Shown here piece by piece: positions 564 to 25,189 of a stretch of DNA of 39,035 nt (its first letter is position 1; every line of letters starts with the position of its first letter). Both the position numbers and the translations under genes were made by a program. The stretch comes from a virus. A model generated the notes under the pieces. That model was given only the letters and a program-made list of their open reading frames with translations, made no database searches and was not told the origin of the DNA. The stretch covers positions 1-39,035 of IMG/VR virus record IMGVR_UViG_3300044620_000249. The stretch is one strand, 5' to 3'.

Positions 564-1313
564 ATGGAAGAATTTAGAATAGACCCAAACATTTCTTATG
601 ATGTTGTTGAATTACCATCAAGAGGTATATTTTACAAAAATAAAAAGAAATCATTAAGAGTAGCATATTTAACCGCATCTGATGAAAATATATTATCTGC
701 ACAAAATTTAATTCAAAATAATACAGTTGTTGATGAATTATTAAAAAGAAAAATTTTAGATAAAGACATAGATTTTGATGAGTTAGTGGATGAAGATAGA
801 ATGTCTATTTTAGTTTTTTTAAGAAACACAGCATTTGGTTCTGATTATGGTTACAAAATAGTTGACCCAAAAACAGGGAAAGAATTTGAAGTTAGTTTTG
901 ATTTAAGTGAATTATCATTTAAAGAATTTAATCTTGAATCAAATGAGAATGGTGAATTTAAATACACAACCACCAATACAAAAATCGATATCACTTTTAC
1001 GTTTTTAACAAAAAAACAAGAAAAAGAAATAGAACAAATTGAAAAAAGTTGGAATGGATTAGGGGTTCCGCCAATTATTACTAAACAATTAGAGTTTATG
1101 ATTAAATCTGTTGCCGGTAATAAAGACCCTATGAATATTAGAAATTTTATTGAAAATTTACCAATCAAAGATTCTCAAGATTTTAGAAAATATGTTAGAG
1201 AAAATAGACCATCTTTAGATTTAAAAAAACAAGTAACGACCCCATCAGGAGAGAATATCCAAGTTACCATTGGATTCGGGGTTGAATTTTTTCGCCCTTT
1301 CTACGGAATATAG
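564..1313 (+). CDS. 26: gp26-like baseplate hub / tail assembly protein, 249 aa
   Basis: Residues 16-24 carry the ELPSRGIFY motif typical of the N-terminus of T4 gp26-type hub proteins in T4-like phages. A charged, helix-rich body follows, including a region rich in K and E (about 150-165) and a DFRKYVRENRP segment near residues 206-216. T4 gp26 is 208 aa, so this version is somewhat longer. In T4, gp26 is needed for baseplate hub assembly. Because the gene sits just before a tape-measure gene and overlaps a second small ORF in the +1 frame, its arrangement mirrors the G/GT tail-assembly chaperone pair of lambda. It ends with TAG at 1311-1313. The start ATG lies 3 nt after the previous stop. 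Confidence 0.7.
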   Translation: MEEFRIDPNISYDVVELPSRGIFYKNKKKSLRVAYLTASDENILSAQNLIQNNTVVDELLKRKILDKDIDFDELVDEDRMSILVFLRNTAFGSDYGYKIVDPKTGKEFEVSFDLSELSFKEFNLESNENGEFKYTTTNTKIDITFTFLTKKQEKEIEQIEKSWNGLGVPPIITKQLEFMIKSVAGNKDPMNIRNFIENLPIKDSQDFRKYVRENRPSLDLKKQVTTPSGENIQVTIGFGVEFFRPFYGI

Positions 1314-1446
1314 AAAAACACAATTAGACGAAATATTATTTTTAATAAAGAGAGGGTTCTCATACGGTGACATCCTTTCAATGCCAATATCTATTAGAAG
1401 ATATTATGTAAATTACATTATGGAATTAGAAAACTCAAAAAATTGA
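1282..1446 (+). CDS. gp51-like small tail-assembly ORF, reached by TTG start or by +1 frameshift from the gp26-like gene
   Basis: In the +1 frame relative to the gp26-like gene an open reading frame runs to TGA 1444-1446. From TTG 1282 it would give about 54 residues: L-N-F-F-A-L-S-T-E-Y-R-K, then DEILFLIKRGFSYGDILSM and a basic IRRYY segment. It looks like a real helical protein rather than a shadow, resembles the small second ORF that follows gp26/chaperone genes in many myophages, and sits 21 nt before the tape-measure gene. No ATG is available upstream in this frame, so translation needs TTG (1270 or 1282) or ribosomal frameshifting at 1287-1295. Product identity (T4 gp51-like hub catalyst) is inference from order. 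Confidence 0.55.
   Translation: MNFFALSTEYRKTQLDEILFLIKRGFSYGDILSMPISIRRYYVNYIMELENSKN
1287..1296 (+). other. Candidate +1 programmed frameshift site (TTT TTT CGC C)
   Basis: The gp26 frame reads TTT TTT CGC CCT. A +1 slip of tRNA-Phe from TTT (1290-1292) to TTC (1291-1293) keeps full pairing, and CGC in the A site should be a slow codon in this AT-rich genome. The product would be gp26 residues 1-243 plus 50 residues of the downstream ORF (293 aa), analogous to lambda GT. This is predicted from sequence alone. Independent initiation at TTG 1282 is the alternative. Confidence 0.4.
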
Positions 1447-1467: not shown

Positions 1468-3390
1468 ATGAGAAGTATTAATGATTTTAAAAGACTTGCC
1501 TATCAAAGTGGTGGAAATAAACAAACGTATGATATCTTATGTAATAGTCCGAACGCAGTAACGTCAAGTGAAACCTCGGCGTATTTACAAGGATGGTTAG
1601 ATTATGAGAAAGAACAAAATAAAGTTAATACATCTACTTCATCAAGTGAAGGTATTGATTTAACTAGTGCAAAAAATATACAAAATTTAACAAGTAGTGT
1701 TAAATCATATCGAGCAACTGATAATGATTTAATACAACCTGGTACAATACTTAATACGATTCAAAGTGGTTTACAATCACTTTTAGGTGATGGAGGTAAT
1801 CTTCAAACATTTGGTACAAATATGTTACAAACCGCATTACGGGGAGTAATTGAAGGTGGTGCGGACATATTACAAAAAGAGGTCGAATTACATAATGAAA
1901 TAAATTCGAGAATTGGTATTTCAGGAGAATTATCTAGAGCTTTTAGAACTGAAATTGTTGAAAGTTTACCTGACATTATTTCAATGGGTTACGGTTTTGA
2001 AGACATAAAAAACACACAAATTGCGATGATGGAGGAATCGGGTAAGTTTGTGATGAATAATAAAGAGGTATTTGGAGATATTGCTGAAACATCTAGAGCG
2101 TTTGTCGGCGATATGGACACTCTTGGTAAAATGTTAGGAACATATGAGAAAGCGGGATTTGGTGCTGCAGATGCTTTGGAAAAAATAAATGAAGCTGGCG
2201 TGAGTTCATATTCGTTAGGATTAAACGCTAGAAAAGTCGTTTCTGAAATTGAAACCAATATGAAGAGTCTAAATTCATATGGATTTAAAAATGGATTTGA
2301 AGGGTTGTCCAGAATGGTTCAAAAATCAATTGAATTTAGATTAAGTATGCAAAGTGTTCTTACATTAGCGGAAAAATTATTTGACCCTGAACAAGCGATT
2401 AATTTGTCCGCACAATTACAAGCAATTGGAGGAACAATAGGTGATTTTAATGACCCATTAAAGTTGATGTATTTAGCAACAAATGATGCTGGTGGTTTAC
2501 AAGAGGCAATGATTAATGTCGCGGGTTCTTTGGCGACTTATAATTCAGAATTGGACAAATTTGAAATTACAGGTGTAAATTTAAGAAGAGCAAGAGCGAT
2601 GGCGACCGAATTAGGTATGACCATGGATGAATTATCAACTACTTCAATAAAAGCAGCGGAAAGGGCTTCCGCGTCTGCGGATTTACTTTCTCAAGGATTT
2701 AACCTTGATGAAAAACAAAAAGAATTTATTACAAATTTAGCGAAAATGGAAGATGGTAAAATGGTTATAGACATACCACAAAGTTTATCCGCTCAATTTG
2801 AAGGGGCAACAAGAGTAGCTTTAAGTGATTTAAATGATAATCAAGTAAAGGTATTATTGGATAGTCAAGAAGAACTGGAAAAAATGAACACTAAAGACAT
2901 TGCTTTGTCTCAATATACTGAAACACAAAAAATGGCACTTAATGTTTCAGAAATTACGACAATGTTAAAAGTTCAATTTGCGGGAGGTGTGAGAGCCGGA
3001 CTTACTAAAGTAGATGAATATGTTAAAGGAATAAATGACTTCTTAGTTAATACCAAAGAAGGTAAAGGGGGATTGGGGACTTTATTAATTGGAGAACAGT
3101 TTGTCAAGGCGAAAAAAGAGGGAGAAAAATATACCCTTGATGAACATAAGGTAAATGATGCAATAATAAGACCCAACATGAAACAAATTATTGTACCGAG
3201 TGTAAACGATACAATATATGCTGTGGATGAAACAAAAAATACGGGGTCAAATGTAGTAACACACAGACACGAACATATTATAAAAGAAAGTTCAGTTATG
3301 ATGGACACAACAAGAAGAATGTATGAGGAAGAATTAAGAAAACAAAACACATCAGAATATGATGGTTATCTTTTTAAAAATTATTCTTGA
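1468..3390 (+). CDS. Tape-measure-like tail protein, 640 aa (T4 gp29 position)
   Basis: The protein is long and almost entirely helical. It has a Gly/Leu/Ala-rich hydrophobic segment near residues 90-130 (IQSGLQSLLGDGG then MLQTALRGVIEGG), and repeated amphipathic helices such as ATNDAGGLQEAMINVAGSLA and RARAMATELGMTMDELS. These are hallmarks of tail tape-measure proteins. Length is close to T4 gp29 (590 aa). At about 1.5 angstrom per helical residue it would specify a tail near 95 nm, similar to T4. It directly follows the gp26/gp51-like chaperone ORFs, the expected order for assembly chaperones and their tape measure. ATG 1468 is the first ATG in frame after the TATTTAT element. The C-terminus turns basic and polar (about 560-640). 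Confidence 0.75.
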   Translation: MRSINDFKRLAYQSGGNKQTYDILCNSPNAVTSSETSAYLQGWLDYEKEQNKVNTSTSSSEGIDLTSAKNIQNLTSSVKSYRATDNDLIQPGTILNTIQSGLQSLLGDGGNLQTFGTNMLQTALRGVIEGGADILQKEVELHNEINSRIGISGELSRAFRTEIVESLPDIISMGYGFEDIKNTQIAMMEESGKFVMNNKEVFGDIAETSRAFVGDMDTLGKMLGTYEKAGFGAADALEKINEAGVSSYSLGLNARKVVSEIETNMKSLNSYGFKNGFEGLSRMVQKSIEFRLSMQSVLTLAEKLFDPEQAINLSAQLQAIGGTIGDFNDPLKLMYLATNDAGGLQEAMINVAGSLATYNSELDKFEITGVNLRRARAMATELGMTMDELSTTSIKAAERASASADLLSQGFNLDEKQKEFITNLAKMEDGKMVIDIPQSLSAQFEGATRVALSDLNDNQVKVLLDSQEELEKMNTKDIALSQYTETQKMALNVSEITTMLKVQFAGGVRAGLTKVDEYVKGINDFLVNTKEGKGGLGTLLIGEQFVKAKKEGEKYTLDEHKVNDAIIRPNMKQIIVPSVNDTIYAVDETKNTGSNVVTHRHEHIIKESSVMMDTTRRMYEEELRKQNTSEYDGYLFKNYS

Positions 3391-15649: not shown

Positions 15650-15723
15650 GGTTCGTTAGTAGAGTTGGTTACAATATCGCACTGTCACTGCGAAGGTCAT
15701 GGGTTCGATTCCCATACGAACCG
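15650..15723 (+). tRNA. tRNA-Asp (GUC)
   Basis: A 74-nt cloverleaf can be folded by hand. The acceptor stem is GGTTCGT/ACGAACC (15650-15656 with 15716-15722) with discriminator G. The anticodon stem is TCGCA/TGCGA around loop CTGTCAC, giving anticodon GTC. The T arm is ATGGG-TTCGATT-CCCAT. The 3' CCA is not encoded and must be added after transcription. Confidence 0.9.
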
Positions 15724-15728
15724 CTTTT

Positions 15729-15802
15729 AGGGGGATATATCAATTGGTTAGATTACGTGCTTTGGGAGCACGAGGTTGTGGGTTCGAGTCCCGCTTCCCC
15801 TA
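15729..15802 (+). tRNA. tRNA-Pro (UGG)
   Basis: A 74-nt cloverleaf begins 5 nt after the tRNA-Asp. The acceptor stem is AGGGGGA/TTCCCCT (15729-15735 with 15795-15801, one G-U pair) with discriminator A. The anticodon stem is CGTGC/GCACG around TTTGGGA, giving anticodon TGG. The T arm is GTGGG-TTCGAGT-CCCGC. CCA is not encoded (ACA follows). UGG reads CCA, the A-ending proline codon favoured in AT-rich DNA. Confidence 0.9.
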
Positions 15803-15821
15803 CAAAAAAAATTAACAACAT

Positions 15822-21679: not shown

Positions 21680-24600
21680 ATGAAAGTTAAAAAAAGAGAC
21701 GGCTCATTAGAGGAAATGAGATATGATAAAATTACAAGAAGAATTCAAAATTTTTGTGATGATTTAAATCTTGAGTATATTGACCCCACATTGATAACAC
21801 TTAAAGTAACACAGGGTATTTACGACGGTATATCGACAACTGAACTAGATGTATTGGCGGCAGAAACCGCCGCTTCCCTTGTTACATCTCATTCGGATTA
21901 TGCAAGATTAGCGGGTAGATTAGCGGTATCTAATTTACACAAAACCACACCAAAAAAATTCTCTCAATCGATAAAAGAGTTACATTCTTTTGTTGAACCA
22001 AAAACAAATAAGGAATCTTCATTGATATCAAATGAAACGTATTCTTTTGTTCAACAACATAAAGATGTTTTAGATGGTGCAATTGTTCAAGAAAGAGATT
22101 TTGATTTTGATTATTTTGGTTTTAAGACATTAGAACGTTCATATCTATTAAAGATTGGTAATCGTATTGTTGAAAGACCACAGTATATGTATATGAGGGT
22201 TGCTGTTGGTATTTGTAATAATGATATTGAAACTGCTCTAAGAATATATGATGATTTATCACAACATTTTTATACACACGCAACTCCAACATTGTTTAAT
22301 GCTGGAACGCATAGACCTCAAATGTCATCTTGTTTTTTAATAGGTAATAAAGGTGATGATATTAACGGATTGTTTGACACAATAAAAGACGTTGCAAATA
22401 TATCTAAATGGGCGGGAGGTATTGGTTTACATGTTCACGATGTGAGGGGTAAAGGTGCGTACATTAAAGGGACAGGAGGAGAGTCTGATGGTTTATTACC
22501 CATGTTGAAAACTTACAATGAGGTTGCTCGTTGGATTAATCAGTGTTTTGCTCCTGACACGTTATTGTACACAGATATGGGTATAAAAAAGATTGACGAA
22601 GTTATTCCTGGTGATTTAGTTTTAAATAAAGATAGAAAATATGTTGAAGTTGGGGAGGTTTTTGTTTATCACCAAAATGGGGGGATGATTGAAATTGAAA
22701 CAAAATCAACAATTAAACCTCTTAAATTAACGGACTCACACCCTTTGTTTGGGTTTAAAAATACATACAATAGAATAGGTAGAGAGAATTTTGAATTTAT
22801 AAATCAATTAGAAAAAGGAATAATTTCACCAGATTGGATTGATAGTGGAGAGTACAAGGTTGGTGATTTTATAGGTAAACCGATACCCAAAGAAATTATA
22901 GACATTGAGGATTTTACAGAAAATGATTCTTTTATCTACGGGTTATTATTGGGTGACGGTCATATATATAAAAATGAGGTGGGCATATCTTTTAATAGAT
23001 TCACAAATGAAAAAGAAATTGATTTTACTATAAATTATTTAACAAATAAAGAAATAAATTTTTGGAAAAATGAAGATGGTGCTTATTTATCTATAAGATT
23101 TTCATTATCAAAATTACCATGGTTAAGATACGAGTTTTTATATAATGAAAAAAAAGAAAAAAGAATACACAAAAACTTTTCCCATTTACCATTATCTAAA
23201 TCGATTCAATTAATTCACGGATTAATAAAATCAGATGGTGGTGTTTACAGAAAAAATGAAATCCATTTTTATAATACAAGTGAAGAATTAATTGAAAATC
23301 TTTCATACCAAATTTTAAGATTTGGTGTGCCAACCTATGGAAGTTGGAGATTAAGAGAAAACAGTAGTGAGTATTTGAAAGAAAATGGTTGTACAAAAGA
23401 ATTCACTTATTCTTGTGATTTAAGAATTCCGTCATTTAATGAATTATCGGAGTTATTAAATATAGACACTGTAACAAAGAAAAATTGGATTATTTGGGAA
23501 GATATTTTATATACTAGAATCACAAAAGTAAAAATGTTAGACGATTATAATGGTAAAGTATATGATTTAAAAATCAAAGAAAACAGTGAGGACCCTTCAT
23601 ATACTTTAACAAGTTGTTTAGTGCATAATGGTGGAAAAAGAAGAGGTTCCTTTGCGATTTATCTTGAACCATGGCATTCAGACGTGTTTGAGTTTATTGA
23701 ACTAAGAAAAAATCATGGAAAAGAAGAACTAAGGGCTAGAGATTTATTTTTAGCCATGTGGGTTCCTGATTTATTTATGAAGAGAGTAGAACAAGATTTA
23801 GATTGGTCTCTTTTTTCACCAGATGAAGCACCTGGATTATCTGACGTATACGATGACCCATATAAATTTACTCAAGATTTTACTGAATTATATGAAAAAT
23901 ATGAAAGTGAAGGTAAAGCAAGAAAAGTCGTAAAGGCCAGAAAATTAATGGACGCCATTTTAACTGCACAAATTGAAACGGGCACCCCATATATGTTATA
24001 TAAAGATGCCGCCAATTATAAATCTAACCAAAAAAACTTAGGCACAATTAAATCTTCAAACTTGTGTTCCGAGATTATTGAATATTCAAGTCCTGAAGAA
24101 CAGGCGGTTTGTAATTTGGCATCTATCGCGTTACCGAAATATATAATTAATAAAGAGTTTAGTCACGAGTTACTTTATGAATACGTGTATCAAGTAGTAA
24201 AGAATTTAAATAATGTTATTGATTTAAATTTTTATCCAACAGAAGAAACAAAACTTTCAAATATGAGACATAGACCCGTTGGTTTAGGTATTCAAGGATT
24301 GGCTGATGTTTTTTGCATATTAAAATTACCATTTGAAAGTGAAGAGGCTGATAAACTACAAGTTGAAATATTTGAGACCATATATTTTGCGGCTTTGTCA
24401 TCATCAAAAGACTTATCAAAAGAAAACGGACCTTATTCATCTTACGAAGGTTCACCAATATCTCAAGGTATATTTCAGTATGAACTTTGGGGTAAAAAAG
24501 ACGAGGACAATAGTGGTAGATGGGATTGGAAATTTTTAAGAAATGAGATTGTTAAATTTGGTGTAAGGAATTCATTACTAGTTGCACCTATGCCAACAGC

Positions 24601-25189
24601 ATCTACCGCTCAAATACTCGGTAACAACGAAGCGTTTGAACCTTTCACATCTAACTTATATTCAAGAAGAACGTTGGGTGGTGAGTTCATTGTAATTAAC
24701 AAACATTTGGTTAATGAATTATTGGAAAGAGGATTATGGTCTGATGACATAAAGAAAAAATTAATAATGGAGAATGGTTCAGTTCAAAATATCCCCGAAA
24801 TCCCTGTTGATGTAAAAGAAGTTTACAAGACTGTTTGGGAGATGTCACAGAAAAGAATTTTAATGATGGCAGCAAATAGGTCGGTTTATATCGACCAATC
24901 TCAATCTTTGAATTTGTTTATTGATAATGCGAGTAAAACAAAAGTCATGGCAGCACATCTATACGGATGGAAACTTGGGCTGAAAACGGGAATGTATTAT
25001 CTTAGAACCAAAGCAGCGGTTGACCCAATTAAAGGGTTAGGTGTTGACACCTCATCATCTAAACCAAATATTGAAAAAAATACAACCATTGTTAAAGAAC
25101 AAAATTTAACAACTAATTATGTTGAAGAAACGGTTTTATCTGTTAAACCAAGTGATTCACCATTTGAATGTGAGGGTTGTGGTTCATAA
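21680..25189 (+). CDS. nrdA: Class Ia ribonucleotide reductase large subunit NrdA with an in-frame intein, 1169 aa
   Basis: This is the catalytic subunit reducing NDPs to dNDPs. An ATP-cone occupies residues 1-90 (KVKKRDGSLEEMRYDKI). C218 (MSSCFL) is the first redox cysteine. N794, C796 and E798 (NLCSE) are the thiyl-radical site, C811 is the second redox Cys, Y1106-Y1107 (GMYYLR) carry the radical relay, and C1164/C1167 form the C-terminal shuttle pair. Residues 289-650 are an intein. Without it the enzyme is 807 aa, normal for the family. The insertion point directly follows Q288, in specificity loop 2 of eukaryotic-type R1. After removal the loop would read Q-GGKRRG, one residue shorter than the eukaryotic GGNKRPG. 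A strong terminator follows the gene. Confidence 0.93.
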   Translation: MKVKKRDGSLEEMRYDKITRRIQNFCDDLNLEYIDPTLITLKVTQGIYDGISTTELDVLAAETAASLVTSHSDYARLAGRLAVSNLHKTTPKKFSQSIKELHSFVEPKTNKESSLISNETYSFVQQHKDVLDGAIVQERDFDFDYFGFKTLERSYLLKIGNRIVERPQYMYMRVAVGICNNDIETALRIYDDLSQHFYTHATPTLFNAGTHRPQMSSCFLIGNKGDDINGLFDTIKDVANISKWAGGIGLHVHDVRGKGAYIKGTGGESDGLLPMLKTYNEVARWINQCFAPDTLLYTDMGIKKIDEVIPGDLVLNKDRKYVEVGEVFVYHQNGGMIEIETKSTIKPLKLTDSHPLFGFKNTYNRIGRENFEFINQLEKGIISPDWIDSGEYKVGDFIGKPIPKEIIDIEDFTENDSFIYGLLLGDGHIYKNEVGISFNRFTNEKEIDFTINYLTNKEINFWKNEDGAYLSIRFSLSKLPWLRYEFLYNEKKEKRIHKNFSHLPLSKSIQLIHGLIKSDGGVYRKNEIHFYNTSEELIENLSYQILRFGVPTYGSWRLRENSSEYLKENGCTKEFTYSCDLRIPSFNELSELLNIDTVTKKNWIIWEDILYTRITKVKMLDDYNGKVYDLKIKENSEDPSYTLTSCLVHNGGKRRGSFAIYLEPWHSDVFEFIELRKNHGKEELRARDLFLAMWVPDLFMKRVEQDLDWSLFSPDEAPGLSDVYDDPYKFTQDFTELYEKYESEGKARKVVKARKLMDAILTAQIETGTPYMLYKDAANYKSNQKNLGTIKSSNLCSEIIEYSSPEEQAVCNLASIALPKYIINKEFSHELLYEYVYQVVKNLNNVIDLNFYPTEETKLSNMRHRPVGLGIQGLADVFCILKLPFESEEADKLQVEIFETIYFAALSSSKDLSKENGPYSSYEGSPISQGIFQYELWGKKDEDNSGRWDWKFLRNEIVKFGVRNSLLVAPMPTASTAQILGNNEAFEPFTSNLYSRRTLGGEFIVINKHLVNELLERGLWSDDIKKKLIMENGSVQNIPEIPVDVKEVYKTVWEMSQKRILMMAANRSVYIDQSQSLNLFIDNASKTKVMAAHLYGWKLGLKTGMYYLRTKAAVDPIKGLGVDTSSSKPNIEKNTTIVKEQNLTTNYVEETVLSVKPSDSPFECEGCGS
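22544..23629 (+). other. Intein with LAGLIDADG homing endonuclease inside nrdA (362 aa)
   Basis: The element starts at C289 with CFAPDTLLYTDMGIKKI, a canonical intein A block. It contains a B-block-like TDSHPLF segment, two LAGLIDADG helices (GLLLGDGHIY near residue 420 and LIHGLIKSDGG near 513), an F block KVYDLKIKE, and the terminal G block ending LVHN at N650. C1, the block-B His, the penultimate His and the terminal Asn are all present. The first C-extein residue is Gly (GGT 23630-23632), not the Cys/Ser/Thr used by standard inteins for transesterification. Reading frame is intact throughout, so the element is not obviously decayed. The endonuclease would be expected to cut intein-free nrdA alleles at this site. 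Confidence 0.93.

Follow-up and report, generated by a model that had tools for sequence, protein, structure and literature searches.

Results

The 39,035-nucleotide stretch analyzed here (hereafter the window; one strand of virus record IMGVR_UViG_3300044620_000249) comes from a phage distantly related to T4 and very probably encodes a tail assembly chaperone made in two forms, the longer one by a +1 slip of the ribosome that a stem-loop on the 5′ side of the slip site likely promotes. We infer the frameshifting from conservation, with high confidence; our confidence that the hairpin drives it is moderate. Our preferred reading of the fusion is that it represents the long tail assembly chaperone, for which T4 has a second gene, gp51.

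Organization of the locus

The window, in which all features described are on the + strand, opens with the C-terminal end of a gp19-like tail tube gene (positions 3–62), which reads DEIATITCSLRPDRCILVY* and matches the end of the tube protein in the syntenic 171-kb contig L031. The gene order in L031 is sheath, tube, gp26, extension, and tape-measure-like gene, the sheath and tube being named by sequence and position. A gp26-like short tail assembly chaperone (TAC-N) of 249 aa follows in the window at 564–1313. Overlapping it, the +1 frame is open from 1237 to 1446 and holds at 1291–1446 a three-helix module without a start of its own that resembles the gp51 C terminus (TAC-C). Directly 3′ of the extension lies a 640-aa gene (1468–3390). 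A profile search with its product returned nothing informative; position and synteny suggest that it is tape-measure-like, and phage immuto carries a TMP annotation. As in G/GT-type systems, the chaperone locus lies between the tail tube and the putative tape-measure gene, and its second ORF overlaps the first out of frame. The original prediction of a programmed +1 frameshift, in a chaperone of G/GT type just ahead of the tape-measure gene, remains the best reading.

Three other features of the window were recorded. A 129-aa ORF of unassigned function at 171–560, between the tail tube and gp26-like genes, is not there in L031. Two tRNA genes, Asp (GTC) and Pro (TGG), lie at 15650–15803 between structural and replication genes. 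The large subunit of ribonucleotide reductase (21680–25189, 1169 aa) gives split profile matches, 1–288 and 649–1118, which suggests a mid-protein insert, such as an intein.

The two chaperone frames join at GAA TTT TTT CGC C. The TTTTTT run occupies 1287–1292, and the slip site TTT TTT CGC, identified by its conserved core and codon statistics, occupies 1287–1295. When CGCC is read as a single step, we reproduce the predicted fusion of 293 aa (243 + 50) with the junction peptide FFALSTEYR. Most ribosomes would read gp26 through to its own stop and yield the 249-aa short form. In a fraction of ribosomes the P-site tRNA-Phe would move +1, from TTT at 1290–1292 to TTC at 1291–1293, favored by slow decoding of the A-site CGN codon (the rare CGC in the window; TGG in other clades). 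The slip would add the 50-residue three-helix extension. Judging from lambda gpGT, the role of the resulting 293-aa long form would be to bring tail tube subunits to the chaperone-coated tape measure.

Conservation of phase and putative slip site

Four scans of IMG/VR, together with annotated phages, yielded 322 loci in which the gp26 stop is complete, and an extension profile (HMM) places the extension in the +1 frame in 320 of them. The two exceptions are L078, whose contig ends and in which the extension was not found, and L298, the only complete locus with the extension in another phase, possibly through an assembly indel or a real phase change. Among representatives sharing <90% nucleotide identity (n = 234), 233 are +1. 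Of these 233, the first codon of the site is TTT in 229, the second is either TTT or CTT in 231, and C or T follows without exception; the A-site codon is TGG in 123, CGN in 89, TAC in 15, and one of a few others in the rest. The original prediction had proposed conservation of the slip-site core in relatives as a check, and the core is indeed kept, with the pattern TTT YTT Y. Since 320 of 322 loci keep the +1 phase and 231 of 233 representatives have as the shift codon YTT with C or T after it, the overlap is confirmed as real and far from chance. The same +1 layout is found in isolated phages of Flavobacterium, Microcystis, Rhodothermus, Bacillus, Listeria, and Streptomyces, and the junction has a conserved slippery sequence, as in G/GT-type chaperones.

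Dual coding starts exactly at the slip site TTTTTT. Across the 90 representatives of the window's clade, synonymous entropy relative to background (H/H0) reaches 1.14 and 1.55 at the last two codons ahead of the site and falls to 0.22 and 0 at TTT TTT. Beyond the site the next Arg is encoded by CGN in 89 out of 89 cases, although CGN accounts for ∼8% of the Arg codons of these genes, and all 90 representatives use TTC for the next conserved Phe. The immuto clade likewise keeps both TTT codons invariant wherever Phe is kept. Stops in the +1 frame often occur one to three codons 5′ of the slip site.

These data bear on whether the extension might instead be a separate small protein, started at TTG 1270 or 1282, at a rarer codon, or by termination-reinitiation, a reading that we consider highly unlikely. 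The TTG codons are present in the window, and some relatives have an ATG near extension codon 6 (TCTATGG). However, in 77 of the 233 representatives the stretch from the upstream +1 stop to the extension contains neither ATG nor GTG nor TTG, a +1 TAG often stands one codon 5′ of the site, and synonymous variation is lost from exactly TTTTTT onward; the competing TTG starts of the original prediction are thereby refuted by the relatives. No Shine-Dalgarno-like sequence precedes any of the 23 ATG-started window genes tested, so nothing flags either TTG as a start; this lack, together with the Flavobacterium relatives, suggests a host among the Bacteroidota. The earlier statement that the +1 ORF lacks an ATG is correct for its N-terminal part (none before 1381); the ORF does have internal ATGs, at 1381 and 1420, but these lie too far downstream to start the conserved part. 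Relatives with an ATG-started gp51 and no conserved slip site were looked for and not found: Each of 10 contigs of 121–288 kb has one gp26 homolog and no separate gp51-like gene, and the window itself has one gp26 homolog and no separate full-length gp51 gene.

Direction of the proposed slip

A single +1 step re-pairs the P-site YTT to TTY in 231 of the 233 representatives, and on this sequence evidence the +1 direction is favored, not proven. A −2 slip, with the P-site tRNA-Phe backing up by two bases along the T run as in phage Mu and one extra Phe incorporated, would give the same frame; TTT TTT permits the re-pairing, and −2 shifts are known in tail chaperones (PMC5009743). We judge it improbable, however, given that −2 re-pairing is lost at loci with TTC or CTG as codon 1 (L102, L158, L248, L313, GXN1, BRock, and LuckySocke) or CTA as codon 2 (L084 and L172), while one +1 step fits all of these loci. 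Slippage of RNA polymerase on the homopolymer of six to seven T is hardly credible: Such a run is short for polymerase slippage, and the phase is kept in the 19 of 233 representatives that carry TTTCTTT and in several with TTCTTT, where long runs are lacking.

A stem-loop 5′ of the putative +1 site

The original prediction was right about the frameshift and its place but missed a conserved stem-loop immediately upstream (1237–1284), which we delineated by MFE, covariation, and synonymous-recoding tests. It comprises an outer stem of 7 bp (1237–1243/1278–1284) and an inner stem of 6 bp (1257–1262/1270–1275), and its 3′ end lies 2 nt before TTTTTT. Across four sequence-divergent +1 clades the 3′ end of the stem is mostly 2–4 nt 5′ of the site, a proximity shared with stem-loop-assisted recoding sites. 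In the window's clade both arms show synonymous bias: The 5′ arm has NCC-CCN in 84 of 90 loci (background share of NCC among Thr, Ala, and Ser codons, 7%–15%) and the 3′ arm has GGG in 86 of 90 (background, 10%). The arms pair as RCCCCR/YGGGGY. Pair 12–51 is C-G in 81 of 87 loci, with three A-U compensations and one G-U. Pair 15–48 varies (A-U 31, G-U 26, G-C 23), and within CCCC/GGGG loci its two sides covary (P = 6 × 10^−4, Fisher's test). CCCC and GGGG are lost together in five loci, which form one divergent group and count as few events. In the loop, TCAGGAGA at 1245–1252 shows almost no synonymous variation within the window's clade.

The 57 nt upstream of the site have a mean MFE of −15.2 kcal/mol, versus −9.6 (SD 0.25) when synonymously recoded, a set-level SD that overstates the significance of the folding because the sequences are related; folding in windows from the body of gp26 exceeds that of recoded sequences slightly or not at all. 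The upstream excess is found in all four +1 clades, in 91%–100% of loci per clade and with different sequences. Covariation and the independent clades are a stronger argument for the stem than the set-level SDs. Single annotated phages are mixed, immuto and LIS04 being without a 5′ excess. No Rfam family matched the stem-loop above the gathering cut-off. No stem directly follows the site in the window and immuto clades; the +1 loci have a weaker excess of downstream structure at +40 to +130 after the site, in 62%–81% of loci.

An internal Shine-Dalgarno stimulator (GGGG, AGGAGA) was considered and rejected, its spacing being unlike that of prfB and the host seemingly Shine-Dalgarno independent; the 3′ arm of the stem is a better explanation for the GGGG. 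The stem-loop could be real and have a different role, in mRNA stability, as a binding site, or in insulating the slip site. This is a reasonable if less probable possibility, to which the nearly invariant loop sequence lends some weight; the ending of the stem mostly 2–4 nt before the site in four divergent clades, and its absence from the cyanophage homologs that shift by −1, speak against it. Most likely, by analogy with known 5′ hairpins, the stem-loop promotes the forward slip. Its lower pairs would re-form at the mRNA exit and pull the mRNA outward, a mechanism already put forward for T4 gene 60, whose 5′ hairpin is described as a motor that pulls mRNA (PMC5009743). At the SARS coronavirus site, a stem-loop located 4 nt to the 5′ side attenuates −1 shifting and, in synthetic constructs, can stimulate +1 shifting (PMC5009743). 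These two elements resemble that of the window in lying a few nucleotides 5′ of a recoding site and differ from it in that the stem-loop of the window is conserved at a putative natural +1 site.

Homologs with the extension in the −1 frame

The window's extension is in the +1 frame and not in the −1 frame at T TTT TTC, the arrangement of a group of homologs. In P-SSM7-like cyanophage loci (57 representatives, AGT TTT TTC and similar) the extension is in the −1 frame. These loci have no upstream folding excess (47% of loci) and a strong downstream excess at +14 to +71, in 96%; in a sliding-window profile the structure peaks of the +1 and −1 groups fall on opposite sides of the site. KVP40-like, Rhizobium, Agrobacterium Atu_ph07, PA5oct, and RAS14 phages are also −1. 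The correspondence between hairpin side and direction holds for the four +1 clades and the cyanophage clade rather than universally, single annotated phages following it only in part. The cyanophage and KVP40-like genes share with the window a homologous chaperone family and the heptamer TTTTTTC, which the cyanophages use as T TTT TTC with a 3′ structure, whereas in the window it is TTT TTT C, read +1, with a 5′ structure. In L337 (4274–4369) and similar cyanophage loci, the deposited gp51 is a 31-aa stub; what is really encoded there seems to be an extension of gp26 reached by a −1 frameshift.

Relationship to T4 gp26 and gp51

The gp26-like ORF matches Pfam T4_baseplate (PF12322; E = 1 × 10^−7, 32.3 bits, gathering cut-off 24.5) and PHROG 150, baseplate hub. 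The PHROG match covers profile positions 13–265 with the fusion (44.8 bits), versus 13–233 without the extension (40.8 bits). Short form and extension were modeled separately with AlphaFold. The short-form model (pLDDT 89) matches T4-like baseplate hub assembly proteins in BFVD, and its best PDB chain is the HK97 TAC 2ob9 (Z 5.1, rmsd 4.1 over 83 residues; next match, 2.1). The extension is modeled as three helices (pLDDT 92); alone it matches nothing in the PDB above Z 2.7, and a PDB sequence search with the fusion profile gave just a chance-like match to Rab8.

T4 gp26 ends EFFELL at the equivalent place, like the EFF.. of the window protein. T4 gp51 consists of the same domain as gp26 plus a C-terminal extension, both proteins matching PF12322, and this extension has a pattern similar to that of the window (SYGDILSMPISIRR against SLNSISKMIPAER). 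The extension profile aligns with the gp51 C terminus weakly and collinearly (P = 5.8 × 10^−4, pairwise hhalign). The extension corresponds to the gp51 C terminus in place and probably in descent. The difference is that T4 has two genes and the window phage one gene and a frameshift; the latter probably does by frameshifting what T4 does with two genes.

Discussion

G-T frameshifting was described in a 2016 review as widely conserved in long-tailed phages, T4 excepted, with tail-chaperone shifts of −1, −2, and +1 all occurring (PMC5009743). The original prediction knew of no frameshift described for the gp26/gp51 pair. This needs correcting for −1 shifts, since −1 poly-T signals in TAC-N genes of T4-like phages are attributed to Vladimirov 2022 in PMC12846349; in the literature that we searched, no paper describing a +1 shift in the gp26/gp51-type chaperone family was found. 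The record of the 2022 study itself describes the identification of T4-like chaperone genes and the proposal of a non-frameshift mechanism (Vladimirov, Gautam, and Davidson 2022; PMID 34826709), and PRFect's summary of it mentions short and long gene copies in some T4-like phages.

Lambda G/GT and P2 E/E′ differ from the window in shifting −1 and in having a 3′ rather than a 5′ stem-loop, and no sequence homology with the window chaperone is established. The +1 site of RF2 (prfB) is alike in that a P-site YTT re-pairs to TTY, some relatives of the window using CTT T exactly as prfB does. It differs in having a stop in the A site, where the window family has a sense codon (CGN/TGG; CGC in the window), and a Shine-Dalgarno sequence 3 nt upstream, a spacing absent from the window site. 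Relative to the −1 poly-T chaperones, what is new here is the +1 direction and, probably, stimulation by a 5′ hairpin. The chances are about even that this is a natural +1 shift stimulated by a 5′ stem-loop zipping at the mRNA exit, with the direction flipping on TTTTTTC within one chaperone family and the stimulatory hairpin switching sides, 3′ for −1 and 5′ for +1.

In many deposited genomes the extension is annotated as a hypothetical protein of its own or as a stub named gp51. The review had T4 as the exception to tail-chaperone frameshifting; the gp26/gp51-type chaperones of many T4-related phages very probably frameshift, here by +1. Together the two groups offer a natural comparison in which hairpin side and frameshift direction go together, and with it the question of how 5′ structures push ribosomes forward becomes directly testable.
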